A DNA stretch of 64,000 nt. Source: Fodinibius saliphilus. GTDB lineage: Bacteria; Bacteroidota; Rhodothermia; Balneolales; Balneolaceae. The notes beneath the pieces are model-generated. The model was not told the DNA's origin, ran no database searches, and saw only the letters and a list, made by a program, of their open reading frames with translations. The DNA lies in the NCBI RefSeq assembly GCF_005869845.1, contig NZ_VAWF01000004.1:248001-312000 (forward strand), given 5' to 3'. A program made the position numbers and the translations under genes. Below, piece after piece: positions 13,447 through 41,300 of this stretch; positions within the stretch are counted from its first letter, which is position 1, and each line of letters starts with the position of its first letter.

Positions 13447-13449
13447 GTA

Positions 13450-13797: not shown

Positions 13798-14046
13798 TTA
13801 AACAAAACTAACTTCTTTTAAAAGAGAACCTGCTCTTCTGTTCATGCATATTCTCTTAATCTATATGTAACAATCAACCAACCGGCGTCGGAAGAAAACT
13901 CATTCTAAGAACTGGGAAGGGAAAGAGCAAGAACCAAAGGGGTTTAAGAGTTCTTATATGTTATCATGTACTCTCATTCAGATCACCAAGAAACATATAG
14001 CATATTATTGAACTGGATAAAGGGTTGTTTCTTATTTTTCAAACCA

Positions 14047-25906: not shown

Positions 25907-27214
25907 TTACTCGGTTCTGGATAGGACTACAGCAGTCATGTCATCAAACAGGTTTGACTGCTGACTATGTTTGGTGCTGTCATTGAAAATATTGTCAATT
26001 AATTCTGAAGATGAATTCCTAACAGCTTTTAATAGCAATCGTTGTAACCGTTTTTCACCATACTCCTCATTTCTTTTATCACGACTGTCGATTAATCCAT
26101 CAGAATAAATGACTAGCTTATCTCCTGGTATAAATTTAATTGTTTCACTTTCAAATTTTTGATTCTCCATAACCCCCAACGGAACCCCTCCTTTCATAAG
26201 TCGATCAAAACTTTTATCTGTGTGGATTAAAAATGGATATTCATGACCTGCATTTGAGTATGTGAAGGAATGGGATCGAAGGTTAAGGATCCCTACAAAT
26301 AGGGTAGCAAACTTATCGTTACTAGTATTTTGAAAGAGTTTATTGTTAACATTTTCTAGCAGTACTTCTATTTCGGAGTGACAAGGCAGTTCACCACGAA
26401 TAAGAGCCTGTAAGTTAGACATCAACAAAGATGCGGGCAGTCCTTTTCCACTTACATCTCCCAAACAAATCACCCATCTATGGTCATCCAGTTTGATAAA
26501 ATCATAATAATCTCCACCAACAGTCTTAGCCGTTATGTTTTTACCTAATAAGTTGTATTGTTTTAGTAAGGGAGCTTCGTCGGGTAGTAGTTGCCCCTGA
26601 ATTTTATTTGCTACCTCAACTTCTTTTTCAATTTCATTTAGCCTCTGCTCCTTTTCATTGAGACGAGCATTTTCTAACACCTGAGCCGATTGGGATCCAA
26701 TGATCGAAAGCAGCTGTTCATCTTGTTTTGTAAAGCTTCCAGAATTTTTCTTGTTATAAATACTTAAGACACCAATCAGTTGAGAACGCACCATTAATGG
26801 AACTGATAAAATAGATTTGAGACCTCTTTTATTTTTTTTGTCAATATACTTTGTATTTACCTGTGGATCATTTACCCGTAAGGGTTTTTGGTTTGACTCG
26901 ATCCATCCCAAAATATTCTCTTGTGGACCGATAGTCGAAAGCTCTTTTGAACTGCAGGTACTCTTTACCAACATTTCAGTATTTCCTTCATCCTTTTCTC
27001 GAATAAGCACAATATTCCCTTGCTCGGCACCAATAAAACAGATAGCTCTATCTATAATGGAATCCATAATTTTATTGGTATCAATAGTACCGCTGATTGA
27101 AAGTGACAGATCGTTTAACATGGTAAGCTCATCAAGAGCCCTTCGGAGACTATCACTTTCATCAGACAACTCCTTTGACTTATTCACTAAATCTGCTACA
27201 GGTGAAATATCCAT
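25907..27214 (-). CDS. GAF-domain PP2C phosphatase (SpoIIE/RsbU-like)
   Basis: A short coiled start is followed by a GAF domain (about residues 30-175; LSVPLMVRSQLIGVLSIYNK) and a SpoIIE-type PP2C phosphatase domain (about 210-435) with metal-site motifs GGDYYDF, LGDVSGKG, YSNAGHEYPFLI and YSDGLIDSRD. Such proteins dephosphorylate anti-sigma antagonists and release sigma factors in partner-switching stress pathways; no antagonist or anti-sigma kinase is seen in the window. A tandem CGTCTT box precedes its start by about 36 bp, the same arrangement as in the resistance island, so it likely belongs to that regulon. Confidence 0.88.
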   Translation of the reverse strand: MDISPVADLVNKSKELSDESDSLRRALDELTMLNDLSLSISGTIDTNKIMDSIIDRAICFIGAEQGNIVLIREKDEGNTEMLVKSTCSSKELSTIGPQENILGWIESNQKPLRVNDPQVNTKYIDKKNKRGLKSILSVPLMVRSQLIGVLSIYNKKNSGSFTKQDEQLLSIIGSQSAQVLENARLNEKEQRLNEIEKEVEVANKIQGQLLPDEAPLLKQYNLLGKNITAKTVGGDYYDFIKLDDHRWVICLGDVSGKGLPASLLMSNLQALIRGELPCHSEIEVLLENVNNKLFQNTSNDKFATLFVGILNLRSHSFTYSNAGHEYPFLIHTDKSFDRLMKGGVPLGVMENQKFESETIKFIPGDKLVIYSDGLIDSRDKRNEEYGEKRLQRLLLKAVRNSSSELIDNIFNDSTKHSQQSNLFDDMTAVVLSRTE

Positions 27215-27243: not shown

Positions 27244-27270
27244 AAAGACGAATGAAATATTAAGAAGACG
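27244..27270 (-). promoter_or_regulatory. Tandem CGTCTT box before the GAF-SpoIIE phosphatase gene
   Basis: Read on the minus strand, CGTCTTC and ATTCGTCTTTAA have first bases 20 bp apart. The downstream copy is 36 bp before the start codon. It is one of five such boxes in the window. Confidence 0.55.
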
Positions 27271-27304
27271 ACATAGCCTTTCTATTATTTCTCACGAGTC
27301 ATTT

Positions 27305-27332
27305 CGTCTTTTCCAATTAGTGATTCGTCTTT
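27305..27332 (+). promoter_or_regulatory. Tandem CGTCTT box before the flavoprotein gene
   Basis: TTCGTCTTTT and ATTCGTCTTTAAAG lie with first bases 21 bp apart, the downstream copy 43 bp before the start codon. The leader after it (AAACAGACTA) is shared with the box at 32405. It may be a SigZ promoter or a LytTR direct-repeat site. Confidence 0.6.
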
Positions 27333-27368
27333 AAAGTAGAAATCAATCCTAAAAACAGACTAGTTACA

Positions 27369-28733
27369 ATGAATACACAAGCTCCTGTAGCAATTATTGG
27401 TGCTGGCCCAGTTGGGCTGGCGGCAGCAGCTCACCTGATCGAACGAGGAAAGCAACCTATTATATTTGAGGCAGGCAATGAAATTGGATACTCCATTAAA
27501 CAATGGCAACATGTTCAACTTTTTTCTCCATGGGAATTTAATGTCGATAAAGCATCAAAAAGACTACTCCAAAAAGAAGGATGGGAGATGCCCCCCGAAG
27601 ATCAACTGCCAACGGGGAAAGAACTTCGCGAAGAGTATTTGCTACCCTTGGCTTCATTACCCACCATGCAATCCCAAATTAAACTAAATGCAGAAGTAAC
27701 AGCCGTAAGCAAAAAAAACTGGGATAAAGTAAAAGATTACGACCGAGAAAAATATCCATATGTACTCAAGGTGAAACTAGCTAAGGATCAAGAATATATA
27801 ATTGAAGCGAAGTCTGTAATTGATGCATCCGGAACTTGGTTTAATCCTAACCCTATAGGGTCCAGTGGTATTCCAGCACCTGGTGAAAAACATAACCAAG
27901 GATATATTGCATATGGTATCCCAGATGTTAAGGAGCGACTAAAGAAGGAGTATCAAAATAAGTCGGTCACTGTAGTAGGAAGTGGGCACTCTGCCATGCA
28001 GGTCGTACTGGATCTTCTGAAATTGCAAGAATCTCATCCTGAGACAAAAATACATTGGATTATGCGATCAACAAACTTAGATAAGGTTTTTGGGGGCGGT
28101 GAAGACGACCAACTTGAAGCTCGTGGAGAGCTAGGTATCCGAGCTCGAAAAGCGATAGAGAACGATCAGATCAAATTGCATACTCCTTTTCTCCTTCAAC
28201 GGATTGAGGAGATAGAAGATCATCCACATAATCTTAGGATAACAGGAGATCAAAATGGCAGTCAAAAATACTTTACCACTGATCGCATTGTCGGGACCAC
28301 TGGCTTTCGGCCAGATCTTAATATGATCCGTGAGGTACGAACCAATATCGATCCCGGCATTGAATCAGTGGGAGATCTTGCTCCTCTAATTGATCCTAAT
28401 ATCCATAGTTGTGGTACTGTTCATCCTCACGGGATAAATGAGCTCAAACATCCAGATGAAAACTTTTTTATAACTGGTATCAAAAGTTATGGACGGGCGC
28501 CTAACTTTTTGCTGGCAACTGGTTACGAACAAGTACGGTCTATTGCAGCTTATTTGACAGGTGACTACGAAGCAGCCAATTCCATTGAGTTAAATCTGCC
28601 GGATACCGGTGTCTGTTCAACTGATTTTATCCTGGATACCGAAAAAAACGGCAACTCTGAGAATAGCACAAATACTGGATGTTGTGGAACCAATAAACAA
28701 GAAACTCAACAAGAAAACGACTGCTCTTGTTAA
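27369..28733 (+). CDS. FAD/NAD(P)-dependent flavoprotein of a metalloid-resistance island
   Basis: An N-terminal dinucleotide-binding motif, AIIGAGPVGLAAAAHL (residues 8-23), and a second one, VTVVGSGHSAMQVVLDLL (about 199-216), identify a two-dinucleotide-binding flavoprotein resembling bacterial flavin monooxygenases. The C-terminus is Cys-rich: GCCGTNKQETQQENDCSC, which could bind soft metals or As(III). The partner MFS gene starts 4 bp after its stop. Similar flavoproteins occur in arsenic gene clusters (ArsO-like), but the reaction here is unproven. A tandem CGTCTT box precedes it. Confidence 0.8.
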   Translation: MNTQAPVAIIGAGPVGLAAAAHLIERGKQPIIFEAGNEIGYSIKQWQHVQLFSPWEFNVDKASKRLLQKEGWEMPPEDQLPTGKELREEYLLPLASLPTMQSQIKLNAEVTAVSKKNWDKVKDYDREKYPYVLKVKLAKDQEYIIEAKSVIDASGTWFNPNPIGSSGIPAPGEKHNQGYIAYGIPDVKERLKKEYQNKSVTVVGSGHSAMQVVLDLLKLQESHPETKIHWIMRSTNLDKVFGGGEDDQLEARGELGIRARKAIENDQIKLHTPFLLQRIEEIEDHPHNLRITGDQNGSQKYFTTDRIVGTTGFRPDLNMIREVRTNIDPGIESVGDLAPLIDPNIHSCGTVHPHGINELKHPDENFFITGIKSYGRAPNFLLATGYEQVRSIAAYLTGDYEAANSIELNLPDTGVCSTDFILDTEKNGNSENSTNTGCCGTNKQETQQENDCSC

Positions 28734-28737
28734 GAAG

Positions 28738-29958
28738 ATGATAAGTAAAATTAAATCACTACTTAAGACAACAAATAAAAAACAAATTCGGCTCGTAATA
28801 TACCTGTCAATTACCCAGCTAATTGGCTGGGGAACCTTATATTATGCTTTCTCTCTTTTTGTGGATCCATTACATACTACCTACGGATGGACTAAATCTG
28901 AGATCAATACTGCATTGACGTTAGGATTTATTACTTGGGCTGCTTCAGCTCCATTTATAGGTACTGCTCTTGACAGTTTTGGAGGCAGGAAAGTAATGAG
29001 CTTTGGGTCTTTACTTGGTGCAATTTCATTACTAGTATGGGCTCAAAGCTCCTCCCTTTTTATGCTTTATGGAGCTTGGATACTGATGGGGGTGGCTATG
29101 GCGTCAGCTCTCTATAAGCCTGCTTTTTATGTTTTGACAATGAGGTTTCCAGAGTCGTACAAAAAAGTAATCACTTGGTTGACACTTGCTGGTGGTTTTG
29201 CCAGCACCATTTTTATACCAGCAATAGAATTTGCTATCAATACTATTGGTTGGCACTATTCTCTGATAAGCATGGCAGCCTGTAACTTATTTATAGCAGT
29301 ACCCATTCATTTTTTAAAATTGCCTAGTAAAGACTCTTATAAAAAGCAAAGGACACCAAACAAAAAATTGCTTGATTTTCAGTTGTTCAAAGAGGACGAT
29401 TTCAAAGTCCAAACATTTTGGGGCCTCAATCTTTGGTTTGTTATTCTGAATAGCATAACTACAGGAATCACCTTTTTACTTATACCCTTGCTGTCTGAAG
29501 TTGGAACTGACCAAAGTATCATCATTTTCAGCTTTTCAATGATTGGACCAATGCAAGTTGTAGGCAGATTCATAATGATGTGGTTTGATAAAAATCTACA
29601 TGCTCTTAAAGTGGGAACGATCGTTACTTTGCTTGCACCTTTAGGTATTGCGTTTGCTGCCATTTTCCCCAAAAGTCTCATTGCTTTACTTTTATTCGCA
29701 ATATTTTTCGGAACCTCTAAGGGTATTATGACAATTATTAAAGGAACAATCGTGGCGGAACAAATGGACTTTTCAGTCTATGCTCGCACAAATGGATGGC
29801 TTGCTCTATTTTCTAAAATAGCAAAGGCCGTAACTCCTACAGCAATGGCTGGATTATGGGCATTGACCGGTGACCCAATTTTAACACTTGGTGTAATTGG
29901 ATTACTTGGAATTATTGCACCGCTGGGAATTTGGCTTGTAAAAAAAGATAATAACTAA
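28738..29958 (+). CDS. MFS transporter
   Basis: About twelve membrane helices are visible over 406 residues, with the MFS motif A region as DSFGGRKVMSFGSLLGA (about 80-96). The start used is the ATG 4 bp after the flavoprotein stop (MISKIKSLL); longer frames into the upstream gene have no signal to support them. It resembles oxalate/formate-antiporter-like MFS proteins found with flavoproteins in arsenic clusters. Export of an oxidised or modified toxic product made by the flavoprotein is a reasonable inference; substrate is not shown by sequence. Confidence 0.8.
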   Translation: MISKIKSLLKTTNKKQIRLVIYLSITQLIGWGTLYYAFSLFVDPLHTTYGWTKSEINTALTLGFITWAASAPFIGTALDSFGGRKVMSFGSLLGAISLLVWAQSSSLFMLYGAWILMGVAMASALYKPAFYVLTMRFPESYKKVITWLTLAGGFASTIFIPAIEFAINTIGWHYSLISMAACNLFIAVPIHFLKLPSKDSYKKQRTPNKKLLDFQLFKEDDFKVQTFWGLNLWFVILNSITTGITFLLIPLLSEVGTDQSIIIFSFSMIGPMQVVGRFIMMWFDKNLHALKVGTIVTLLAPLGIAFAAIFPKSLIALLLFAIFFGTSKGIMTIIKGTIVAEQMDFSVYARTNGWLALFSKIAKAVTPTAMAGLWALTGDPILTLGVIGLLGIIAPLGIWLVKKDNN

Positions 29959-29969
29959 TAATGAACATA

Positions 29970-30500
29970 CTACTTAGCTGATTCACAACCAATGATCTCT
30001 CCATGCTGATTGTATTTTAGCTGGCAGCAACGCTTTCGAAACTCAGCTAAAATAACACTACGTGCCTTCTGCACCCTCGATTTGAAGGTACTGTAAGGCA
30101 AGTCGAGGTAATTAGCTGCCTCTTTTTGAGTAAGGGATTTTGTAAAAACATCAAGCAAAATATCTTGTTGCTCTTGACTGTATTCTTCAATTAGCTCATA
30201 CAAACAGTCCGAAATTAATTCTATATCAGAAACCTGCTCGTGGAAATCAGTAGAATCGATAATTTCTGAATCAATAAGCGAATCTTCTTTTTTCTTTCGA
30301 GTATAATCAATAAGCGTATTTTGAGCTATTCTGAAGACCCAAGCCTCATGATTGTCTACATTTTTTAACTTTTCTTTATTACTTAAAACTTTATTGAATG
30401 TGTCCTGTGTCAGGTCTTTGGCCACTTCCCTTTTTCCCACCTGATCCAACAGGTAGTAACGAACTTCTTCAGAGTACTTTTTGTATAGTTCCTCAGTCAT
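29970..30500 (-). CDS. sigZ: RNA polymerase sigma factor, SigZ type (copy 1)
   Basis: A 176-residue ECF-type factor with region 2 (DLTQDTFNKVL...AWVFRIAQNTLIDYTRKK) and region 4 (LTQKEAANYLDLPYSTFKSRVQKAR). The C-terminal tail KRCCQLKYNQHGEIIGC, with a Cys pair and another Cys, is a hallmark of SigZ proteins and may sense metal or redox. It converges on the MFS gene with an 11-bp gap. No anti-sigma gene is adjacent. A perfect 16-bp palindrome lies 35 bp before the start codon and is shared with copy 2. Confidence 0.88.
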   Translation of the reverse strand: MTEELYKKYSEEVRYYLLDQVGKREVAKDLTQDTFNKVLSNKEKLKNVDNHEAWVFRIAQNTLIDYTRKKKEDSLIDSEIIDSTDFHEQVSDIELISDCLYELIEEYSQEQQDILLDVFTKSLTQKEAANYLDLPYSTFKSRVQKARSVILAEFRKRCCQLKYNQHGEIIGCESAK

Positions 30501-30535
30501 TACCGTGTGGTTTATTAGAATGAAATATTTATTAT

Positions 30536-30551
30536 ATCGTAAATTTACGAT
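30536..30551 (-). promoter_or_regulatory. Palindromic operator before sigZ copy 1
   Basis: ATCGTAAATTTACGAT is a perfect 16-bp palindrome. It ends exactly 35 bp before the sigZ start codon. A 14-of-16 match occupies the same position before sigZ copy 2, and the 35 bp between are also similar (AAATATT-CATT-TAATA). Confidence 0.7.
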
Positions 30552-31002
30552 GAAGCAAAATATTGTTTTAGCACATTTTACTTATCAATTGGCTTTTTAT
30601 GCATTACCGTAACATTTAAAAGACAAATAATTGAAAACTCATTACTACTTTGTAATAAAACATGTACTTGATGACGATCTATTCCCTTATAAAAAAGTTT
30701 TGCCGGTTTGTTATCAGCAAATACAATTCTTTGATATTTGCCTCTGCTGCATAAATTTTAAGCTTTTAAAATAGTCTTTTCACGAACACTCTCTGATGAT
30801 ATTCTATTGATACAACTAACAAATTCAAAAGGCTATGGGTAAAGAGTGACTCTATCCCAATAGGTCCTACTATTTACTCGTTATTCTCTATTATTAAATA
30901 ATGCTTAATATTCTAAACAAAAGTATCTTGATTGGGCAGTTCATATTTTCAATATAAGTTCAGGATTATAATAATCAACTTTTGCTTTTTTAATTGATAA
31001 CG
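30552..31002. other. Intergenic stretch without a gene
   Basis: I see no supported gene or RNA in this AT-rich stretch. It lies upstream of sigZ copy 1 and downstream of the DoxX-like gene. The only signals are the sigZ palindrome at one edge and the ATTTGAAGTCAAAT palindrome at the other. Confidence 0.4.
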
Positions 31003-31016
31003 ATTTGAAGTCAAAT
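31003..31016. promoter_or_regulatory. Palindrome ATTTGAAGTCAAAT
   Basis: A perfect ATTTGA-AG-TCAAAT palindrome, 20 bp after the stop of the DoxX-like gene. It is the second copy of the site found upstream of the LytTR gene at 25713-25726. Confidence 0.4.
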
Positions 31017-31035
31017 AAAACGCTTAATAATCTAT

Positions 31036-31440
31036 TTAAAATGTAGTCTTATAGTTTGGAAGGTTTTGAATATCAGGTCGCATTATCTCTAACAATGACT
31101 TTCCTGCTCTATTTACCAAAAGAAGCAACCCACCAATAAGGGATATATTTAAAAGTATTGCCGATGGAGGACTAGCTAAAAAAAGTAAGACAAGAACTCT
31201 ATCCCCAATAAGAATTGATAATGCATAATTATATTTATGCTTGACCAACAATAAGAATCCTGCTGCTATTTCAGTTAATGCAACAACAGCAAATGAATCT
31301 GGAATAATGGGTCCTAAAGTTTGGTTTAAAGATATATTAATGCTGGCTGGGGAAATACATTCCATAATTCCTAAACAAATGCATGTAAATGCAATACAAA
31401 ACCTACCTACTGTAGTTTTCTTCTCATTCATGATCTTCAT
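31036..31440 (-). CDS. Small DoxX-like membrane protein (copy 1)
   Basis: About four hydrophobic helices fill 134 residues, ending in MRPDIQNLPNYK. The tail matches the ending TDIENVPYYK of the membrane protein at 32462, and both have the same helix layout, so the two are diverged paralogues. The general look is DoxX/MauE-like, a family of quinone- or thiol-linked membrane proteins; the role is unknown. The ATG at 31431 (MNEKK) is as plausible as the first ATG, because it puts the CGTCTT box at the same distance as in the other units. Confidence 0.65.
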   Translation of the reverse strand: MKIMNEKKTTVGRFCIAFTCICLGIMECISPASINISLNQTLGPIIPDSFAVVALTEIAAGFLLLVKHKYNYALSILIGDRVLVLLFLASPPSAILLNISLIGGLLLLVNRAGKSLLEIMRPDIQNLPNYKTTF

Positions 31441-31459
31441 CTATATTCGTCTTTATTTA

Positions 31460-31486
31460 AAAGACGAATGAGATTAAAAAAAGACG
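31460..31486 (-). promoter_or_regulatory. Tandem CGTCTT box before DoxX-like copy 1
   Basis: On the minus strand TTCGTCTTTT and ATTCGTCTTTTAAA have first bases 20 bp apart. A third copy in inverse orientation gives a 10-bp inverted repeat (ATTCGTCTTT and AAAGACGAAT at 31445-31469) next to the start codon. Confidence 0.6.
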
Positions 31487-31668
31487 AAACGACTTAAATA
31501 CTTAATCAATCAGCTATTTAATAGGCTATTTCCTATTCAGTTCAGAAGAACAATCCAGTAGTTCTTAGTTAGCTTTAGCATTATTACAAATTAGATAATC
31601 AAAGGTAATTACCACAGGGACAACATAGGGACAAACAGAATTCTTCAATGCTATGGGATTAAAATAGA

Positions 31669-31968
31669 TATTCAACTTAGATCTGGAGGCTACAGATAAG
31701 GTGACAGAAAAAGACCTAAAGCGAGTGGCCAAGTGTTACAGGACCTAGCAAAGCATTCCCGGGAGTCTATTTATGGGGGAACAAACCAAGACGCCTTTGC
31801 CCAAGCCGATGATATTGAGACCAAAGCTGAAAATACGTTTAACTTTGAAGCCTCCGGTGAAGGGACACGCAAAGCCAATGAAAAATCTTCCGAATTGGTG
31901 GCCAGCCCCCGGGTGAGTCCTAATTCTAAGGAAACAGAAGGCCAAGAAATGAATGTTGCTAATTTTTA
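31669..31968 (+). pseudogene. Relic coding fragment with a frame change
   Basis: One frame reads NLDLEATDKVTEKDLKRVAK and then stops; the overlapping frame continues with SGQVLQDLAKHSRESIYGG and stays open to VANF. The first part is about 45 bp similar to the relic at 16062. The family is not recognised. No start codon with context precedes it, so a decayed gene is the best reading. The rest of the 1-kb gap up to 32400 shows nothing supportable. Confidence 0.35.
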
Positions 31969-32404
31969 ATCAAGGTACCCAAAAAATATGGCTGAAATTA
32001 CAAGTAGTAAACTGGCAAGCAACAAGGATTCAATGTTTGGCATAGATCCTGAGAATATTATTCGATAATTGTTGCCCCCTCTTTATTAGCTTATTAACAA
32101 ATTCATCAGCCACTGCAGTAAAATTAGCTCCTACTTCATCATCGGTATAATTTTTTATGAAAACCTCAGATGAATGGGGTTACTTCTTATCTTTCTTAGT
32201 AAACCAACAGACCTATTTGAACTTTATTCTACATGGATTTTCAATGGGTGTAATTCTTTGCCTTTCAGAATTAGAAATCTCCTACTCGGTTGTTTTCCTC
32301 TGTTTCATAGTATCGGTTTTTAATTCGACGTAATTACTATAGACGAAATAAAAAGACAAATAGATTTTCAGATAGTAGTTGCAGATAAAGATTTTTTAAA
32401 ATCT

Positions 32405-32431
32405 CGTCTTTTCATTTTCTCGTTCGTTTTT
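32405..32431 (+). promoter_or_regulatory. Tandem CGTCTT box before DoxX-like copy 2 operon
   Basis: CTCGTCTTTT and GTTCGTTTTTAAAG have first bases 20 bp apart; the downstream copy has one change (CGTTTTT). It is 37 bp before the ATG at 32462. The sequence after it (AAACAGACTA) matches the leader of the flavoprotein gene. Confidence 0.6.
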
Positions 32432-32461
32432 AAAGTGTCAACCGAAACAGACTATACCGAT

Positions 32462-32842
32462 ATGAAAGCGACAATAAATACTGCTGCACGATTTTTGATA
32501 GGAGGGTTTCAAACCGGTTATGGAATATGGCTACTGAAATATTTTTATCGAACTGATGTTCTCTCTGCACCTTTGGAAACGAATCTCCTATTAGGAATCG
32601 GGGGACTAGCCTTCTTAGCGGGACTATTCCTTTTTCTTGGCTATAAGGTGAATACAGCAGCAATTCTACTAATTGGTATAACAATAGGCACTATGCCGTT
32701 ATTCTCACATACCTTTCTAGATTTCTTTGAAAGTCTCGCCCATATAGCCGGGCTCCTGCTTTTAGTACAAAATGATTCAGGAGAAACCTTTTTGGAATAT
32801 GCCCAGACAGATATAGAAAATGTCCCCTACTACAAAATGTAA
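32462..32842 (+). CDS. Small DoxX-like membrane protein (copy 2)
   Basis: A 126-residue protein with about four membrane helices (FLIGGFQTGYGIWLL, LLLGIGGLAFLAGLFLFLG, AAILLIGITIGTM, HIAGLLLLV) and the tail TDIENVPYYKM shared with copy 1. The start chosen is the ATG giving MKATINTAARF; an upstream GTG lies inside the regulatory box. It is the first gene of a plus-strand unit with ArsN2, a thioredoxin-like protein and a permease, each separated by 11-25 bp. It may supply redox equivalents, but that is inference. Confidence 0.65.
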   Translation: MKATINTAARFLIGGFQTGYGIWLLKYFYRTDVLSAPLETNLLLGIGGLAFLAGLFLFLGYKVNTAAILLIGITIGTMPLFSHTFLDFFESLAHIAGLLLLVQNDSGETFLEYAQTDIENVPYYKM

Positions 32843-32867
32843 TCTAAACTATAAAACCTAGTCAATT

Positions 32868-33320
32868 ATGTTACCCAATAAACTAGATATTACTAAAGCC
32901 CAGAAAAAAGACTTGGAAAATGTTAAGCAACTACTTAGAAAATGCCAGCTACCGAGTAGTGATCTTACTAAACATCATATGGATCATTTCTTTTTGCTTA
33001 AGTCTGGAAATAAGATTCATGGAAGTGTAGGCCTAGAGATTTTCGAACCTTACGGGCTACTTCGATCATTGGCTATAAAGAAAGAAATGCGAGAGCAGGG
33101 TTATGGAAAACTATTGGTAAACCAAATAGAAAACTATGGCCACGAACAAGATATAAAACGAATTTACTTGCTTACCACTACTGCCCAAAACTTTTTCAAA
33201 AAGAATGATTATAGGAATATAAACCGGAATCGCATCCCTCAAAATGTAAAAAAGAGCAAAGAGTTTTCTTCTCTTTGCCCAGAATCAGCTGCTTCAATGG
33301 TCAAATACTTTAATAAATAA
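32868..33320 (+). CDS. arsN2: ArsN2-type GNAT N-acetyltransferase
   Basis: The 150-residue protein has the ArsN2 order of motifs: GSVGLEIFEPYGLLRSLAI (about 53-71), the acetyl-CoA loop REQGYGKLLV (about 77-86), IYLLTTTAQNFFKKNDY (about 102-118) and a late LCPESAASMVKYF. ArsN-type enzymes acetylate arsenical compounds, and ArsN2 genes are regularly found in ars clusters, although the substrate of ArsN2 itself is less certain. It is the strongest marker that this island deals with arsenic or organoarsenicals. It starts 25 bp after the DoxX-like gene. Confidence 0.82.
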   Translation: MLPNKLDITKAQKKDLENVKQLLRKCQLPSSDLTKHHMDHFFLLKSGNKIHGSVGLEIFEPYGLLRSLAIKKEMREQGYGKLLVNQIENYGHEQDIKRIYLLTTTAQNFFKKNDYRNINRNRIPQNVKKSKEFSSLCPESAASMVKYFNK

Positions 33321-33345
33321 TAAACAACAAAACACTTCTACTGTT

Positions 33346-33603
33346 ATGTGCATTGATATAAAAATTCTAAAATCATCTTGCTGTAAAACAACTGACTCTA
33401 TTATCACAGATCAACTAGAGGCTGCCTCGACTAACACAGGTACCAATTTTGATCTCGAAATCCTTTCTGACTTACAGGAAACCATGAAATATGGAGCAAT
33501 AAATTTTCCCTCTCTTGTGGTAAATGGAGAGGTGTATGACTATGCAGATTTCAACACCGTACAGGATTTAGAACTCATCCTTAAAAAACATTCTAACATA
33601 TAA
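33346..33603 (+). CDS. Thioredoxin-like small redox protein
   Basis: An 85-residue thioredoxin-fold protein of the kind encoded beside DUF318/ArsP permeases: IDIKILKSSCCKT at the N-terminus, then a cis-Pro loop INFPSLVVNGEV (about 60-71). The usual C-x-x-C is replaced by adjacent cysteines at about 12-13, so thiol-metalloid binding or transfer may matter more than classic disulfide exchange. Its stop is 11 bp before the permease start, supporting a joint function. Confidence 0.7.
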   Translation: MCIDIKILKSSCCKTTDSIITDQLEAASTNTGTNFDLEILSDLQETMKYGAINFPSLVVNGEVYDYADFNTVQDLELILKKHSNI

Positions 33604-33614
33604 GCTTACAGGTT

Positions 33615-34589
33615 ATGGAAACGTTTTTTGATCAGTTTATCTCACTGGCGGACTATTTAGTTTATGATGCGATAAATATATCCCGGGAGCTATGGTATGC
33701 TGAAGCGCTACACTTCTTCATTGCCAATTTTTCTAAAATTTTTGTACTCCTGGTCATTGCCATCTACATAATGAATCTCATCACTGATTACTTATCATAT
33801 GAACGAATTGGTGCCTATTTAGAAAAGAATAAACAATTAGGCACAGGAAATATTCTCGCATCCTCCCTGGGTGTTGTAAGCCCCTTCTGCTCCTGTTCTT
33901 CGGTCCCCTTATTTGTGAGCATGATGCAGGGCAGAGTCCCCTTGGGCATCTCGTTATCATTTTTGATTACTTCTCCCTTAGTAAACGAAGTGGCCATTGC
34001 AGTATTTTGGGCAACTTATGGTTGGAAAGTTACATTTATATATGTGGCTTCGGGAATTATTCTCGGCGTAATTGGAGGAATAACCCTAGAAAAACTGGGA
34101 TATGAAAAACATGTAGCCGATTGGATTAAGGACCTAAACTATAAGGAAACAACAGTTCAACAAGAATCCAGGACCTTTCGAGAGCGCCTTACAGATATTC
34201 ACCAGGAGGCCTCAACTACCATTATTAAATTAGTACCATATATTTTCGTTGGCATGGTTGCCGGTTCTTTAATTCATGGATATGTTCCCCGGTCATTTTT
34301 CCAGCACTACATGCCCGAAAACAGCCTATTTGCTGTCCCCTTGTCAGTCATTATGGCTATCCCACTCTATCTTGATGCAGTGAGTGTTCTGCCCGTTATT
34401 GAATCCTTAATTGGTAAAGGAGTACCTATGGGAACAGCAATTGCCTTTATGATGGGAGCTATTGGGTTATCCCTGCCAGAAGCACTACTGTTAAAGAAAG
34501 TGATGAAAAAGAAACTACTCATTGCATTCTTTACAACAATCGGCATAGGCATGGTTATATCCGGATACTTCTTTAACATGATATTTTAA
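33615..34589 (+). CDS. ArsP/YraQ-type permease (DUF318)
   Basis: About eight membrane helices over 324 residues, with the family signature GVVSPFCSCSSVPLFVSMM (about 95-113; the FCSCSSVP Cys pair is diagnostic) and the second motif YLDAVSVLPV near 253-262. ArsP members export trivalent organoarsenicals such as methylarsenite. The adjacent thioredoxin-like protein and ArsN2 fit this. Other members of the wider family are linked to other metals, so the substrate stays open. It is followed after 89 bp by sigZ copy 2. Confidence 0.83.
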   Translation: METFFDQFISLADYLVYDAINISRELWYAEALHFFIANFSKIFVLLVIAIYIMNLITDYLSYERIGAYLEKNKQLGTGNILASSLGVVSPFCSCSSVPLFVSMMQGRVPLGISLSFLITSPLVNEVAIAVFWATYGWKVTFIYVASGIILGVIGGITLEKLGYEKHVADWIKDLNYKETTVQQESRTFRERLTDIHQEASTTIIKLVPYIFVGMVAGSLIHGYVPRSFFQHYMPENSLFAVPLSVIMAIPLYLDAVSVLPVIESLIGKGVPMGTAIAFMMGAIGLSLPEALLLKKVMKKKLLIAFFTTIGIGMVISGYFFNMIF

Positions 34590-34627
34590 CACTCATAATA
34601 ATGAATGTATAGCACCAATTTGATTTA

Positions 34628-34643
34628 ATCGCAAAATTACGAT
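34628..34643 (+). promoter_or_regulatory. Palindromic operator before sigZ copy 2
   Basis: ATCGCAAAATTACGAT matches the perfect palindrome before sigZ copy 1 at 14 of 16 bases and also ends exactly 35 bp before the start codon. The intervening 35 bp keep AAATATTCATTTTAATA-like sequence. Confidence 0.7.
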
Positions 34644-34678
34644 AATATAAATATTCATTTTAATACAACCCTAAGAAG

Positions 34679-35212
34679 ATGACTGAGCAACTATGGATGC
34701 AATATTCCGATCCGATATGCAACTACTTTAAAAAAAGAACGGGTGATCGAGCACTTTCCTGTGACCTAATGCAAGACACCTTTACTAAGATTGTGGATCA
34801 CAGGAAGCAGCTGGATGATATTGATAACCCCAAAGGGTGGATCTATCGCATAGCGCGAAACCTGCTTATTGATTACAGGCGAAAGATGAAAGAAACTTCA
34901 ATATCTGATGACAATTTAGCTGCCTTAACTATGGATGTGGAAAATACGGATTCTAATGTCAATGATATTGCAGAATGCTTGCATCAACTTATTAACGAGT
35001 ATGAAGGTAGTGACCAAAAGATCTTATCTCATGTATTTAAAAAATCAATAACTCAAAAAGAAATGGCTCAATACCTAGAAATACCATACAGCACATTTAA
35101 ATCACGAGTTCAAAAAGCCAGAAAAGAAATCATTGATGAATTCAACAAGCGTTGCTGTAAATTAAGGTATGATAATAACGATCGTATTATTGGTTGTGCT
35201 CCAACCAACTAA
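34679..35212 (+). CDS. sigZ: RNA polymerase sigma factor, SigZ type (copy 2)
   Basis: A paralogue of copy 1 with the same layout: DLMQDTFTKIVDHRKQL and GWIYRIARNLLIDYRRK for region 2, ITQKEMAQYLEIPYSTFKSRVQKAR for region 4, and the SigZ tail KRCCKLRYDNNDRIIGC with conserved cysteines. It lies at the end of the permease unit with its own conserved upstream palindrome. Two sigZ genes at the two edges of one resistance island suggest that they control it or each other. Confidence 0.88.
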   Translation: MTEQLWMQYSDPICNYFKKRTGDRALSCDLMQDTFTKIVDHRKQLDDIDNPKGWIYRIARNLLIDYRRKMKETSISDDNLAALTMDVENTDSNVNDIAECLHQLINEYEGSDQKILSHVFKKSITQKEMAQYLEIPYSTFKSRVQKARKEIIDEFNKRCCKLRYDNNDRIIGCAPTN

Positions 35213-35597
35213 TAAATAGAGGTTTTATCGCATGATTCATATCAAGTTGCTGCTAGCGATTGCCCAATTCAGATTTTATACGGCTTATGAGGAGCCCGTT
35301 TACGATGTGTATTTTTGATGATGCAATCAGCCATAGCTGACGCTTTATAACAAAAAACTGACTGTGGACTTAAGTAACATATTTTACCATTACATTGCAT
35401 TTTAAAAAATCTTGAAATTGAATTTCAAAACCGATTTTTGCACCTTCCCATAAATACACATAGACACTCATAAAACTTGAAATATATTCTACTTGTCATT
35501 GTAAGTATCGCCATCGACACCAACCCTCACTGAAATTTTGTATCATAGGGTTCTACCATCCAATCGAAATACGACCAACAATAACAGGGAGGGATGT
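35213..35597. other. Intergenic stretch without a gene
   Basis: I see no supported gene or RNA between sigZ copy 2 and the SRAP gene. A purine-rich GGGAGGG ribosome-binding site just before 35598 belongs to the next gene. Confidence 0.45.
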
Positions 35598-36275
35598 ATG
35601 TGCGGACGATATACGCTTATTGAAAGCGATGCAGAAATTGAAACGTGGTTTGATGCGACCATGGAAGAGGGAGAGCAGTACGGGCCAAACTATAACGTAG
35701 CCCCGACTCATAGCATGCCGGTGGTGGGGCAGAACCGAGAGGGCCAACGTACCATCCAGCATTTCCGCTGGGGACTGTTGCCGTTCTGGGCAAAGGAAAA
35801 GAAAATGAGCTACAGCATGATCAACGCCCGGGCGGAATCAGTCGACACCAAGAAATCTTACAAGCGTTCATTCGAAAAATACCGGTGCCTGATTCCAGCC
35901 AGCGGATTCTACGAATGGAAGGGCGAAAAAGGCAACAAAACGCCCTACTATATTCACCCGACCCATGAACCGATGTTTGCATTTGCGGGCATCTACAACG
36001 TGTGGGAATCTCCCGAAGGAGAGAACATACCGACCTATAGTATTATCACAACCGACGCAAATAAAAAAATGAAGGCTCTGCACGAACGTATGCCGGCTAT
36101 GCTCCTAAAGGAGGAGTGGACGGAATGGCTGAATCCTAATAACCATAACACCAAGGCCCTGAAAGACTTGCTTACTCCTTTTCCCGATGATGGAATCGAT
36201 TATTACCAAGTAAGTAAAGCTGTAAATAGCGTAAAGAATAATTCTGAAGAGCTAATAGAGCCGGCAAGTCGATAG
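35598..36275 (+). CDS. SRAP/YedK-family abasic-site protein
   Basis: The start is set by the family: Met must be directly followed by Cys, and MCGRYTLIE begins here behind a strong GGGAGGG site; the longer frame upstream cannot be right because Cys2 becomes the catalytic N-terminus. Other hallmarks are PNYNVAPTHSMPVV (about 33-46), INARAESV (about 76-83), CLIPASGFYEW (about 98-108) and LHERMPAML (about 160-168). The protein forms a stable crosslink with abasic sites in single-stranded DNA and is linked to the SOS response. It stands alone here. Confidence 0.93.
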   Translation: MCGRYTLIESDAEIETWFDATMEEGEQYGPNYNVAPTHSMPVVGQNREGQRTIQHFRWGLLPFWAKEKKMSYSMINARAESVDTKKSYKRSFEKYRCLIPASGFYEWKGEKGNKTPYYIHPTHEPMFAFAGIYNVWESPEGENIPTYSIITTDANKKMKALHERMPAMLLKEEWTEWLNPNNHNTKALKDLLTPFPDDGIDYYQVSKAVNSVKNNSEELIEPASR

Positions 36276-36323
36276 TAATAGAAACTTGGAAAGAAAATAT
36301 AGCTAACACCTTTTTTTATTTTT

Positions 36324-36390
36324 TGGCTGGATCGGAATTGAACCGATTTGCGGAGTTACCATAATCATGGTTCCATTTGCAGTATACCAT
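36324..36390 (-). tRNA. Degenerate tRNA 3'-end relic, possible attachment site
   Basis: On the minus strand a perfect T-arm is visible: ATCGG, loop TTCAATT, CCGAT, followed by acceptor-like CCAGCCA. Upstream there is no matching acceptor strand TGGCTGG at the right distance and the anticodon arm does not fold normally, so it is not a functional tRNA gene. tRNA 3' ends are common integration sites; the relic may be the scar of an integrated element. The surrounding 36276-36676 region holds no other feature. Confidence 0.4.
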
Positions 36391-36676
36391 TTTAGAGATA
36401 TAGGCGATCGAGAAATTACAAGTTAACATGAAGTTATAAATAACATTACCATTATACTTATAATGATCACTGTCTTTTGGTTGTGCTTTTAGACTATTTG
36501 GTAACTATTAGAAACAGTAAATCCTTCAAAAAGGAAAACCTCAGGCAAACAGTGCTCACTCAGCATGCTTATTTCCTTCTTTTATACTTCATGTTTCAAA
36601 GCTGTCAATAGTATTGAGCTCCCCCCCAATCAAAAGTAGAGAATCGGGCGCTATGTACACTTTCTCAATATATTCA

Positions 36677-37210
36677 CTAATTTTGAATGCTAATCTCGAG
36701 CGTAGCCTCAGCTGATTTGTTATTATAATTGGTACCTCCATAGGTAAGTTTTATAAAACCTCCCGAAAAGGTCATACCATTATCACAATAATTTTTGTTC
36801 TCAAAATTGTAGGTCTCAACATATTTAGACCATGCCTCACCATCATCATCTAATCCTAAATCACTTTCTCTTTCAATACCCATAGTTGGCCCATGTCGGG
36901 TTACTACAGTATCTGACTCACAACTAAAACTAGTGATAGGGCTGACAGTTTTTATCTTTTTTACTCCGCCCGAATCCTTAATAAATGCAAGTACTGAAAA
37001 AGGCTTGCCATAATCTACGGTTGCACTGGCATCCCCTGTTTTGTGAATTGGATTTGAATTTGAATGAAAGGCAATAGTCCACTCTATATTAGGACTTGAC
37101 TTGTCATTATAATCAGGTTGTGTTTTACAGGAACTGCAACCGGATAACATAATGGCTACCAATCCCACATAAATGTATCCTTTTATTTGTTTGCTTAGTC
37201 GTAGTAACAT
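36677..37210 (-). CDS. Hypothetical lipoprotein
   Basis: A signal peptide ends in a lipobox, IMLSGC, with Cys 25 as the likely lipidation site. The mature part of about 150 residues is beta-rich, with two internal cysteine pairs (SFSCES and KNYCDNG) and an Ig-like look (PFSVLAFIKDSGGVKKIKTVS). No known family is recognised. It would be anchored in the outer or inner membrane. It stands alone, with relic DNA downstream of its start. Confidence 0.6.
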   Translation of the reverse strand: MLLRLSKQIKGYIYVGLVAIMLSGCSSCKTQPDYNDKSSPNIEWTIAFHSNSNPIHKTGDASATVDYGKPFSVLAFIKDSGGVKKIKTVSPITSFSCESDTVVTRHGPTMGIERESDLGLDDDGEAWSKYVETYNFENKNYCDNGMTFSGGFIKLTYGGTNYNNKSAEATLEISIQN

Positions 37211-37267
37211 AACTTTCCTCTCTTGCTTGATGATTTGATTAATTATATGCGACTCAGTTACTTATAA

Positions 37268-37432
37268 TTAAAGGATAATTAAGAAAAGGGCAAATTGTGT
37301 GGTACGCTCACCCAACTCAATATTGCCACCACAGCTGTCCAAACCCCTCATTACAGCTTGGGCGAACAGCTCGTCTGTCTTGGCCTCCAACCTGCTGGTA
37401 TCAACTTCGGGATTAAACCTGAGGATTGACTC
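37268..37432 (-). pseudogene. 3' remnant of an unrecognised coding gene
   Basis: An open minus-strand frame without a start codon reads LRFNPEVDTSRLEAKTDELF, then AQAVMRGLDSCGGNIELGER and stops; upstream it is closed by TAG. The composition is protein-like and unlike the surrounding AT-rich spacer. I do not recognise the family. The rest of 37211-37589 holds nothing else. Confidence 0.35.
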
Positions 37433-37589
37433 CTAAAAATCAATGAGACCATAATGTTAGAATCAATGAATTATCCCTTCGAGAAAGTATAACATCAAAA
37501 CACCAGCTCATTTAACTGCTCGCGCCGCTCCTAAAATAACTATAGTACCTGGTTTTAGATATTATTCTCAACTTGTCCAACTTCACTCA

Positions 37590-38714
37590 TTATTCAAAAA
37601 GGTTTATGTATTGTTTAAATACGTAAAGTCTATTTCGTTCGGCTCCCGTTACCTCTGTTAAAATATCAACATCTTCCAAAGATCTAATAAGCTTATAGGC
37701 GGTAGGCATAGAAACATCAGCGGCCTTACTCACCCCTTCGGCAGTAATAATCGGTCGTTCATACAATTGGCGAATCACCTGTTGTGCTTTTCCAACTCTT
37801 TTGCCCATCTCCTGCAAGTCGTGATCTACTTGTTGTTGGAGCTGCATTATAGCGTCAAACGTTTTGATTCCACTTTTGGCCGTATCAATGACTCCTGCTA
37901 AAAAGAATTTTATCCACTGTATAATATCATCCTTTTCCCGAACCCGCATCAGGTTATCATAGTATGCCTGCCGGTGGCGCTCGAAAAAATCAGACAAGTA
38001 AAGAATCGGCTGTTTTAAAATACCTTGACTAACCAGATAAAGCGTAATCATGAGCCTCCCTACCCGACCGTTTCCATCAAGAAACGGATGGATGGTCTCA
38101 AACTGGTAATGAACAATGGCAATTTTAATCAGATCCGGCAGATAGATTTCCTCGTTATGCACGAAGTGCTCCAAATCACTCATCAGCTCCGGGATACTTT
38201 CATGAATAGGTGGAATAAAAAGGGCATCTTTAATTGTTGCTCCGCCGATCCAGTTCTGGCTCGTTCTGAATTGGCCCGGTTGTTTTTGCTCTCCCCGTAC
38301 CCCTTGCATAAGTACTTTATGCGTGTTTTTGATCAGGCGAGACGAAAACGGAAGCTCCTCCAATTCATTTATAGCTGCATCCATCGCCGCAATATAATTT
38401 TGTACCTCCTCCCAGTCGTCCCTCTTTTCAGGGGCAACACGTTCTTTGTCCAAAAGCGCTTCTTCTACTTTCGTTTGGGTGCCCTCAATCTTGCTGCTCT
38501 GTGTCGCCTCCTTAGCCACGTGCATGCTAATAAACAGATCAATATTGGGGATATATTCAGAATACATATCTAAGCGGCCCAGCTGGCGATCGGCCTGACT
38601 TAATAAATCCACAATTTCCATACTTTCAAGCTGCCACTGCCGATTAACAGCATTGGGCTGAAAACTCTGGTAATGATCTTGGTTTATATATGTACCTGCT
38701 TTGAAATTTTTCAT
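37590..38714 (-). CDS. Fic-domain AMP-transferase-like protein with C-terminal winged helix
   Basis: The catalytic Fic motif HPFLDGNGRVGR (about residues 207-218) is intact, so nucleotidyl transfer to a hydroxyl on target proteins is expected. An N-terminal helix carries SSKIEG (about 77-82), matching the inhibitory (S/T)xxxE(G/N) motif that blocks ATP binding. A winged-helix DNA-binding domain occupies about 315-374 (EGVSKAADVSMPTAYKLIRSL). Length 374 aa is typical for this Fic/wHTH class. Six TTAAATAAGG-like sites upstream are likely bound by its own winged helix, giving autoregulation. Confidence 0.88.
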   Translation of the reverse strand: MKNFKAGTYINQDHYQSFQPNAVNRQWQLESMEIVDLLSQADRQLGRLDMYSEYIPNIDLFISMHVAKEATQSSKIEGTQTKVEEALLDKERVAPEKRDDWEEVQNYIAAMDAAINELEELPFSSRLIKNTHKVLMQGVRGEQKQPGQFRTSQNWIGGATIKDALFIPPIHESIPELMSDLEHFVHNEEIYLPDLIKIAIVHYQFETIHPFLDGNGRVGRLMITLYLVSQGILKQPILYLSDFFERHRQAYYDNLMRVREKDDIIQWIKFFLAGVIDTAKSGIKTFDAIMQLQQQVDHDLQEMGKRVGKAQQVIRQLYERPIITAEGVSKAADVSMPTAYKLIRSLEDVDILTEVTGAERNRLYVFKQYINLFE

Positions 38715-38718
38715 TGGA

Positions 38719-38877
38719 CCTTAAATAAGGATTTCGCTATTTAACAAAATGATCTATTTCTTAAATAAGGAAGATGCTTATTTAAAACAAACCTACCTTC
38801 CTTAAATAGGGACATGTTTTAAGAAAGCTGTTAAAGATAAACTCACGATATTAAATAAGGCATAACCTAATTTAAGG
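38719..38877. promoter_or_regulatory. Array of TTAAATAAGG sites upstream of the Fic gene
   Basis: Six copies occur in 160 bp: CCTTAAATAAGG at 38719 (a palindrome, 4 bp from the start codon), TCTTAAATAAGG at 38759, CTTATTTAA at 38777 in inverse orientation, CCTTAAATAGGG at 38800, ATTAAATAAGG at 38850 and CCTAATTTAAGG at 38866. Such an array suggests cooperative binding by a repressor, most simply the Fic protein itself. Confidence 0.6.
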
Positions 38878-38975
38878 AAATACTAAAAATCTTAATTACA
38901 CTGGGGGGGCTTAATTAAATAAAGAGCAAAACATTAAATTAGAATGGTATTTGCCTACAAAATACCTTGTACGTA

Positions 38976-39040
38976 AAAAGCACTGTCATCCTGAGCCTGT
39001 CGAAGGATCTCTTGGTAACAACTCGCGTAGTATCTAAAGG
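38976..39040 (+). repeat. 65-bp direct repeat, copy 1, with palindromic partner
   Basis: It begins AAAAGCACTGTCATCCTGAG and ends CTAAAGG; the second copy is at 39645-39709. A related inverted arm (GAGATTCTTCGAG... CCTCAGAATAACGG) lies at about 39128-39172. This resembles dispersed extragenic palindromic repeats seen in this group of bacteria. A short frame through it (38967-39170) is an artefact of the repeat. Confidence 0.65.
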
Positions 39041-39267
39041 ATTAGCCCTGATCCATGAGCAAATCGCTTCCAGGAGATGGATTCGACTTCACTTCGTTTC
39101 GCTCACCATGACGGTCGTTGATGAGGAGATTCTTCGAGTCCATTCGCTGCGCTCATTCCCCTCAGAATAACGGACCTTGGTAAAGATGTTCGGCTTTACT
39201 CCCCCTAAACAGGCATTAATGTAATAAAACTGTAAGGACCACCCTCTGTAAACAATCTTACTATCTT

Positions 39268-39558
39268 ATGGAAAAGAAATATCACGTATATATAATGACT
39301 AACCCCCATCACACGGTACTTTATACCGGTATTACCAGCGATATTATCAAACGAGGCTGGCAACACCGGAAGAGAGAAGTGGAGGGATTTACAAAACGCT
39401 ACAATTGTACGAAGATGATTTATGTTGAGGAGTACGATCATCCCCAAGAAGCTATTGACCGGGAAAATCAAATTAAGGGCTGGACTCGTAAAAAGAAGGA
39501 GGCGCTTATTAAGCGGTTAAATCCGGAGTGGAAAGATTTATATGGGGAGTTTATTTGA
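39268..39558 (+). CDS. GIY-YIG nuclease-family protein
   Basis: A 96-residue stand-alone GIY-YIG domain of the UPF0213/YhbQ-like type: YHVYIMTNPHHTVLYTGITSD gives the two tyrosine-centred strands (residues 4-24), with Arg in KRGWQHR, and Glu in DRENQIKGW. Family members are small predicted endonucleases with unclear roles, widespread in Bacteroidota as multiple copies. The gene lies between two 65-bp direct repeats, which suggests it has moved or been duplicated as a cassette. Confidence 0.8.
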   Translation: MEKKYHVYIMTNPHHTVLYTGITSDIIKRGWQHRKREVEGFTKRYNCTKMIYVEEYDHPQEAIDRENQIKGWTRKKKEALIKRLNPEWKDLYGEFI

Positions 39559-40045
39559 TCTCTTTTAAAGCAACCCTTGCACAACAATAGCCTATCTTTA
39601 TGGAGATGGTTCGGCTGGCTCACCATGACATCAATACTAAACATAAAAGCACCGTCATCCTGAGCCTGCTGAAGGATCTCTTGGTAACAACTCGCGTAGT
39701 AGCTAAAGGGCTCCCCCCCGCACCAGGGAGCTTATTCGAGGAGAGGAAATCGACATGCTAAAAGAGACCGACGCTTCGGTAAATGTGGCTGAAAAAATTC
39801 ACAATAAAATATTGTGTGCTGACCACTTTTGATCTGTTAGGGATCATTTAACTGGCTTTCAGCCCAGCGAAAAAAACCGACAAATACTACCGATATGAGC
39901 GATCTTTGGTATATAGGGATGAAAACAATGCTGAAAACAAAACTATCAAAAAAATTATATCAAACTTTAAAAAAAACATGGAAAAACGCGAGCTCAGTGA
40001 ATATAATAGATTTTAAATATTTACTTCCACTACAACTGTACTTGC
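39559..40045. other. Repeat copy and relic DNA
   Basis: It contains the second 65-bp repeat (39645-39709). After it a short frame reads IRGEEIDMLKETDASVNVAE and stops, a likely coding relic of unknown family. A 62-codon frame at 39895 is not credible (Lys/Leu-rich with no support). Confidence 0.35.
39645..39709 (+). repeat. 65-bp direct repeat, copy 2
   Basis: It matches copy 1 at 38976-39040 closely, including GGATCTCTTGGTAACAACTC and CGCGTAGTA. The pair flanks the GIY-YIG gene. Confidence 0.65.
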
Positions 40046-40441
40046 CTATGAAATGGATAGCACTTCTTCCCATTCTTCTTTAAAAGGACCACTCTCTGTA
40101 GAAATATCAACAATTTCCCTGAGCTCTTTCCGGTAGTGATCTCGTATCGTTGAGATGGAAAGATTGGACAGGCCTCCTCCCTCTTCAACTAACGTACTGA
40201 CTGCTTCTTTAAGATTTTGGTAATGAAATTCAGCGTGTTCGCGCGCATCCCGGTGGACGATCTTCCCATTTCTCCGCTCCTGGTATTCTTTCGCCAAGAT
40301 ATCTTTCATAGAGTAATGATCCGGCCAGGGCGAAACTACTTGTGATTTGTGAAGCCTGACGGAGTTATCAGGCTCTATGTATATCTTCAATGTAACATCC
40401 CCGGGGCCGCGGACTTGCAAAATCAAATCTGATCTTTTCAT
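40046..40441 (-). CDS. Hypothetical protein, full-length copy of a duplicated gene
   Basis: A 131-residue protein of unknown family. The first 55 residues (MKRSDLILQVRGPGDVTLKI and the part containing SQVVSPWPDHYSMKDILAKE) are nearly identical to the truncated copy at 48082-48303. The second half is helical (AREHAEFHYQNLKEAVSTLV). The similarity continues into the upstream DNA (GACACCGT-TTGTCACC), so the event duplicated promoter and gene. The two copies bracket the secreted operon. Confidence 0.55.
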   Translation of the reverse strand: MKRSDLILQVRGPGDVTLKIYIEPDNSVRLHKSQVVSPWPDHYSMKDILAKEYQERRNGKIVHRDAREHAEFHYQNLKEAVSTLVEEGGGLSNLSISTIRDHYRKELREIVDISTESGPFKEEWEEVLSIS

Positions 40442-40812
40442 CTGTTAATAAATTTGTGGTTAACTGATGGTTATACACAAATGTATCGTCCTAGGGAGAC
40501 ACCGTGTTGTCACCCCACTTTAAGTAAAACCACCCCTCCTCATAGCCTCCAAAGGCCGATAATTGTTCCGTTTCAATCGCATGCCTATTCGATTTTTTTC
40601 TATGCCTATGTTTTGATTGGATTATGCGCATCAATCATTTGGTTGAATACTATGTTTTTGTGGAAACATGCGCATGTTTTCGCAAAGTATGCAAAACACT
40701 CTCTTGAACTGTGTTTATGGCTTCCTAATGCCTTTCGGAAGTCCATATATCCCCATATCTCTCAGGATAAGCCGTAAAATAAAAAGCAATATCAGATTAG
40801 CTTAAAAAATCT

Positions 40813-40839
40813 CGTCTTTTCGGTTCCTCATTCGTCTTT
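40813..40839 (+). promoter_or_regulatory. Tandem CGTCTT box before the nuclease pseudogene
   Basis: CTCGTCTTTT and ATTCGTCTTTAGG have first bases 20 bp apart. The leader that follows (ATAGAAATAAATCTGA) is close to the leader of the flavoprotein gene (GTAGAAATCAATCC), so promoter and leader were probably copied as a unit. Confidence 0.55.
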
Positions 40840-40865
40840 AGGATAGAAATAAATCTGAATAAAAC

Positions 40866-41277: not shown

Positions 41278-41300
41278 TTAATTGACATAAGAAGCTGTAC

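Follow-up and report, generated by a model that had tools for sequence, protein, structure and literature searches.

The window examined here, a stretch of 64,000 nucleotides from Fodinibius saliphilus, carries an island of arsenic-related genes with five copies of a two-part sequence element, referred to as boxes. The box is very likely a promoter read by a SigZ-like sigma factor of the extracytoplasmic function (ECF) class, and two such factors, SigZ1 and SigZ2, are encoded in the same island. Beyond this, it is probable that the boxes act as SigZ-like promoters for arsenical defence and that sigZ1 and sigZ2 are themselves repressed by ArsR via a palindrome in front of each gene. All support for these readings is computational, from sequence. 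Loci, genomes and contigs used for comparison are designated by L, G and C numbers, respectively.

Association of a two-part element with SigZ-like genes

The association, seen across the phylum, was assessed in 56 SigZ-like loci, the two of this genome among them (30 from a profile search, 20 from its lower-ranked places and 6 more), with the element defined as CGTCTTTT followed by CGTC 19–21 bp later. Within 1.4 kb, the strict box was present in 19 of the 56 SigZ-like loci and in none of 93 other ECF loci (P 9e-10), and the reversed strict pattern in 1 of 56 and 3 of 93, respectively. When the seven design loci having matches were left out, the strict box was found in 12 of 49 vs 0 of 93 loci (P 1e-6); the three design-stage loci without a strict match were kept in the 49. 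A loose regular expression, drawn from about ten of the 56 loci and the window, matched 13 of the 56 upstream regions (250 bp), with a shuffled mean of 0.23 and no match of the reversed pattern (0/56). Control ECF upstream regions did not contain the box (0/101). An unguided word-pair search of the 56 upstream regions placed the box at the top: CTTT and GTCT separated by 12–14 bp occurred in 18 regions (0.4 in shuffles), and CGTC and CGTC separated by 15–17 bp in 14 (0.15 in shuffles).

At the level of whole genomes, the pattern CGTCTTTTN{11,13}CGTCT gave 30 matches in 21 of 38 SigZ-bearing genomes, and 18 of the 30 were at most 6 kb away from a SigZ-like gene. Frames of 100 codons or more enclose 10 of the 12 distant matches and 7 of the 18 near ones; in the latter, the frame is often the gene behind the box, extended upstream. 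Relatives of the sigma factors were found in 12 of 244 genomes of the class (E 1e-25, four-sequence alignment). In G187 and G304 sigZ is directly preceded by the box, which also stands before sigZ in other genera. In G187 a second box precedes an operon orthologous to that behind box 27305, and G266 and G304 have weaker forms before their ArsO-like genes. The exact double box was of no use as a phylum-wide probe outside the island: it matched 15 of 296 genomes, several of them within 21-bp units repeated in tandem, and matches of the reversed pattern were equally common. Viral contigs yielded two loci, both remote ECF factors (23% identity), which were discarded.

The initial annotation had described the five boxes as tandem CGTCTTT copies, and their coordinates, spacing, distances to the start codons and shared leader words were all borne out by the sequence. 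Exact CGTCTTT pairs make up three boxes (27305 +, 31460 − and 40813 +), with 0 in 100 shuffles, and the two others are imperfect, with CGTCTTC in copy 1 (27244 −) or CGTTTTT in copy 2 (32405 +). A fixed-spacing pattern with 3 mismatches allowed showed no excess (10 found vs 5.87 expected). From start to start, the two copies are 20 bp apart in four boxes and 21 bp apart in box 27305, and the first base of copy 2 precedes the start codon by 43 bp (27369), 36 bp (27214), 26 bp (31440) or 37 bp (32462). Boxes 27305 and 32405 have the leader word AAACAGACTA in common, and boxes 27305 and 40813 the word TAGAAAT-AAT. Such words outside the box, shared among the leaders of 27305, 32405 and 40813, together with the absence of a gene behind 40813, would suit duplicated copies of one leader without any shared regulator. 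This is the least probable of the alternatives considered, and the chance is minute, since boxes of other genera and families have different flanks, conservation being largely confined to the two elements.

Throughout the 3.61-Mb genome, all three exact pairs (10–16 bp between the copies) and all four matches of the 20-bp form (up to 2 mismatches) are inside the island. Looser ECF-type patterns gave two more matches outside it, C5:24575 and C1:1622156; the former lies inside a 517-codon frame and was taken as chance. The exact, up-to-2-mismatch and looser pattern searches thus gave no well-supported copy outside the island. The shared regulon of the initial annotation therefore fits inside the island, and its proposed extension beyond it found no backing in the genome-wide motif search suggested there.

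To describe the box independently of the window, an outside model was made from 24 hand-picked boxes of 19 other genomes. The 24 do not include the boxes of L179, L184, L185, L186 and L196, additional boxes of L199 (two), L169 (two) and L205 (one), or the weak forms that precede ArsO-like genes in L200 and L201. Copy 1 in the 24 boxes reads CGTCTTT, with G replaced by A in 4 and an extra T in 21; copy 2 reads CGTC in 22 and TGTC in the other 2, with T as the next base in 23, such that GTC is found in 24/24. The spacing is 20 bp in 17 boxes, 19 bp in 5 and 21 bp in 2. Three of the strict boxes of L179, L184, L185, L186 and L196 carry CGTCA or CGTCC instead of CGTCT, and the final T is therefore less constant than in the 24. 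In the 64 kb, the five window boxes took the first five ranks of the outside model (Table 1), and the next site scored 14.8.

The two halves of the 24 boxes are conserved unequally, with copy 1 as CGTCTTTT and copy 2 as CGTCT. Unequal halves at a near-constant spacing fit the −35 and −10 elements of a promoter, and CGTC is the usual −10 sequence of ECF promoters. The layout found is that of an ECF-type promoter, with −35 and −10 elements at near-constant spacing in front of the sigma gene or its neighbours and a −10 containing CGTC. The initial annotation had left the choice between a SigZ promoter and two direct repeats recognized by a LytTR protein, and it was correct that both kinds of regulator are encoded here. 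LytTR proteins bind spaced direct repeats, and the gene of one (25291–25647, minus strand) adjoins the island. A LytTR site needs two equivalent repeats, however, and the halves of the box are unequal; moreover, a LytTR-like match was present in only one of 15 context loci (L199–L213; L201, E 5e-7) when the loci, and not farther regions of the genomes, were searched, whereas the sigma gene has a clear box nearby in 11 of the 15. We therefore regard the LytTR part of that choice as highly improbable, and the SigZ part as strongly supported by the association across genomes.

Proximity alone cannot separate a sigma factor from its neighbour, and the box could be the site of another regulator that travels with SigZ-like and arsenic genes; in L200, for instance, a MerR-like gene adjoins sigZ (by eye). 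We consider this unlikely, albeit less so than a LytTR site. In the contexts, which were compared only with the window proteins, we noticed no shared neighbour apart from the sigma gene, the CGTC half is that of an ECF −10, and the box is missing from the other ECF loci (0/93). Recognition of the box by a SigZ-like factor remains the reading that we favour.

A predicted cascade from ArsR to SigZ

The genes behind boxes in other genomes show a clear, though not exclusive, arsenic theme. ArsM (L206 and L209) and ArsI/CadI (L212) were found above the family cut-offs and an ArsO-like gene below it (L199); Pfam matches were DUF2703 (L213), GNAT (L199) and DUF5916 (L201). By eye, ArsI-like VOC proteins are behind the boxes of L185 and L196, a MATE-like protein behind that of L163 and, as an unexpected target, PhzF-like proteins behind those of L179 and L186. 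Directly after the boxes of L202, L204, L208, L167 and L173 come very small peptides that are rich in cysteine, contain CTC/CNC repeats and are metallothionein-like by eye. The sigma gene itself is behind the box in L149, L150, L153, L155, L158, L169, L172, L200 and L037, among others.

Neither of the two sigZ genes of the window has a box of its own, and both are preceded by a 16-bp palindrome (Table 1) that the initial annotation does not mention. In the genome, the only exact copy of the palindrome precedes sigZ1, and the only copy with one mismatch precedes an arsR-arsM operon (contig C2). The sigZ2 palindrome is one of four copies with two mismatches; the others were rejected as operators, being inside long frames (C1:816782 and C1:1267101) or at the beginning of a possible frame of 117 aa (C4:355579). 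An arsR relative is present in 73 of 92 genomes of the family. Among the matches listed, 29 of 30 arsR loci have the palindrome within 3 mismatches and the last one has it with 4 (shuffled mean 0.045 per 30), at 7–16 nt before the arsR start codon, and 28 of the 30 contain an ArsM gene. Because it is kept before arsR in 30/30 loci within 4 mismatches, the palindrome is probably the ArsR operator.

From these elements the following circuit is proposed. Copy 1 (CGTCTTTT) would be the −35 and copy 2 (CGTC, usually CGTCT) the −10, 19–21 bp apart from start to start. SigZ1 and/or SigZ2 would transcribe the genes for the ArsO-like flavoprotein, the ArsK-like exporter, ArsN2, the thioredoxin-like protein and the ArsP_1 permease, as well as that for the GAF-PP2C phosphatase. 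ArsR, from the arsR-arsM operon elsewhere in the genome, would repress sigZ1 and sigZ2 through the 16-bp palindrome. On exposure to arsenic, ArsR would be released, SigZ1 and SigZ2 would accumulate and the box operons would be switched on. As a box-driven operon ends in the gene of SigZ2, the synthesis of SigZ2 would constitute a positive feedback. Cysteines in the linker between sigma2 and sigma4 and in the tail could add direct sensing of the metalloid (see below).

Several observations weigh against this scheme. Window-like boxes served as seeds for both the regular expression and the outside model, which makes the tests partly circular. The strict box is absent within 1.4 kb in 37 of the 56 SigZ-like loci, and the five closest sigZ genes have a box directly upstream in two cases only, these being neither G266 nor the two genes of the window. 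In the 38 SigZ-bearing genomes the reversed pattern has more matches (54) than the pattern itself (30), and for the latter it is therefore the position of the matches and not their number that is informative. The score of box 4 (17.7) hardly tops the maximum of the outside model in ten shuffled windows (17.1). Neither SigZ1 nor SigZ2 reaches the cut-off of the SigZ family TIGR02959 (Table 1); both are named SigZ-like because SigZ is their best match yet the score is below its cut-off. With up to 3 mismatches allowed, the palindrome and the control have 32 and 24 genome-wide matches per strand, respectively, which is little excess. It was found in 2 of the 56 SigZ-like upstream regions, both of this genome, and for this reason the link from ArsR to SigZ may be a local rewiring. 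Finally, some boxes precede non-arsenic genes (DUF5916, PhzF-like and MATE-like).

Gene content of the window

The features of the island are summarized in Table 1. SigZ1 and SigZ2 are 48% identical and belong to the ECF class: both contain the Pfam domains Sigma70_r2 and Sigma70_r4_2 (the latter in SigZ2 with a score of 21.9, below the gathering score of 25.7) and both are above the cut-off of NCBIfam sigma70-ECF. The operon behind box 4 encodes, in this order, the 126-aa protein, ArsN2, the thioredoxin-like protein, the ArsP_1 permease and SigZ2. The 134-aa and 126-aa proteins had been labelled 'DoxX' in the initial annotation, and these labels were dropped as neither protein matched Pfam or NCBIfam at E 0.001.

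Table 1. Boxes, presumed operators and genes of the island; scores of boxes are those of the outside model.
Feature	Position	Strand	Description
Box 1	27244..27270	−	predicted promoter of GAF-PP2C phosphatase gene; weak −35 (CGTCTTCT), −10 CGTCT; rank 4, 19.3
Box 2	27305..27332	+	predicted promoter of ArsO-like/ArsK-like operon; spacing 21; rank 2, 28.2
Box 3	31460..31486	−	predicted promoter of 134-aa protein gene; rank 1, 30.0
Box 4	32405..32431	+	predicted promoter of operon ending in SigZ2; −10 altered (CGTTT); rank 5, 17.7
Box 5	40813..40839	+	without intact gene close behind; rank 3, 23.7
Presumed ArsR operator ATCGTAAATTTACGAT	30536..30551	.	ends 35 nt before SigZ1 start codon
Presumed ArsR operator ATCGCAAAATTACGAT	34628..34643	.	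ends 35 nt before SigZ2 start codon
LytTR DNA-binding protein, 118 aa	25291..25647	−	downstream of GAF-PP2C phosphatase gene, same strand
GAF + SpoIIE-type (PP2C) phosphatase	25907..27214	−	behind box 1; Pfam
ArsO-like flavoprotein	27369..28733	+	behind box 2; NCBIfam ArsO 52.3 bits, below cut-off 425
ArsK-like major facilitator superfamily (MFS) exporter	28609..29958	+	behind box 2; NCBIfam ArsK 187.4 bits, below cut-off 400; 28609 is the listed open reading frame start, true start probably later
SigZ1, SigZ-like ECF sigma factor, 176 aa	29970..30500	−	TIGR02959 115.5 bits, cut-off 168.65
134-aa protein	31036..31440	−	behind box 3; no family match
126-aa protein	32462..32842	+	behind box 4; no family match
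ArsN2 acetyltransferase	32868..33320	+	NCBIfam 146.5 bits, cut-off 125
Thioredoxin-like protein, 85 aa	33346..33603	+	Pfam Thioredoxin_3
ArsP_1-type permease	33615..34589	+	Pfam 211.1 bits
SigZ2, SigZ-like ECF sigma factor, 177 aa	34679..35212	+	last in box-4 operon; TIGR02959 116.4 bits, cut-off 168.65

Behind box 40813, the longest frame starting within 260 nt is 46 aa and no intact gene is close by. Degraded coding remnants with broken frames are present at 40840–41290, behind this orphan box, and at about 31690–31960. A stretch of about 60 bp is found twice in similar form between genes, at about 38975–39040 and 39640–39700 (by eye). Elsewhere in the window, positions 4662–15571 contain a possible defence gene cluster (AAA ATPase, metallophosphatase, HerA-like, SIR2-like, Schlafen-type helicase, MazG-like and AbiEii/AbiEi). 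A third SigZ-type factor (L294:1360-2818, on contig C2 of G000) is above the TIGR02959 cut-off and has an ArsI/CadI gene just downstream; no box was found in the 5 kb covered.

Cysteines of SigZ-like factors and comparison with known systems

In a selection made with a profile that itself contained C100, C159, C160 and C173, the tail cysteines C159 and C160 are present in 49 and 48 of the 56 SigZ-like proteins (1 and 2 of 93 controls), the linker cysteine C100 in 34 of 56 (1 of 93) and C173 in 11 of 56 (0 of 93). Three thiols suit As(III), and by analogy to CorE the linker and tail cysteines may add direct sensing of the metalloid. CorE-type factors are described, in the part of PMC8999054 consulted, by a cysteine-rich tail and a CXC motif in the linker, with ECF287 and ECF288 as possible further cases. 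The SigZ-like proteins have the cysteine-rich C-terminal extension; a linker CXC was not found in SigZ1 and SigZ2, the linker having the single cysteine C100.

A broader proposal, which we put forward tentatively as falling a little short of probable, is that SigZ-like factors with a CC tail form a phylum-wide class for arsenic and other thiol-binding metals. They would sense the metalloid directly by linker and tail cysteines and read CGTCTTTT-N-CGTCT before arsM, arsI, arsO-like and metallothionein-like genes and their own gene; in the present lineage they would have been put under ArsR, giving a two-sensor cascade. Among the matches listed, the open-licence literature contained nothing on SigZ targets or on an ECF factor in the arsenic response. 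The predicted promoter of SigZ-like factors in the phylum, with its targets, and the predicted ArsR-to-SigZ cascade of this genome are new. If true, arsenic defence would be run by a sigma-factor cascade and not by ArsR alone. What the analysis provides is the sequence of a promoter with a list of targets and a likely inducer; if true, it would also furnish a compact pair of promoter and sigma factor for arsenic biosensors.

Several known systems resemble parts of the scheme. ECF factors are usually autoregulated (PMC3107203, the CorE paper, in the part consulted). The box is like the promoters of autoregulated ECF regulons in having two parts, one of them a CGTC −10, and in preceding the sigma gene and its neighbours; it differs in that the −35 nearly repeats the −10, and in that the sigma genes here carry the ArsR palindrome instead of a box of their own. 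CorE and CorE2, the metal-dependent ECF factors of Myxococcus, likewise have a cysteine-rich tail and cysteine between sigma2 and sigma4, according to the portions consulted of PMC8999054 and PMC3107203. SigZ1 and SigZ2, however, have CC plus one more tail cysteine, a single linker cysteine and no CXC, and they are set among arsenic genes, not in a copper, cadmium or zinc context. The SigZ family (TIGR02959), which takes its name from Bacillus subtilis, is, together with PRK09637, the best curated family for SigZ1 and SigZ2, although both fall below its cut-off, in contrast to the third sigma factor, which is without a box nearby. Finally, the arsR-arsM operon with its conserved palindrome just before arsR resembles ArsR-controlled ars operons; the difference is that the palindrome is here also found before two sigma-factor genes, which would place ArsR at the top of a cascade.

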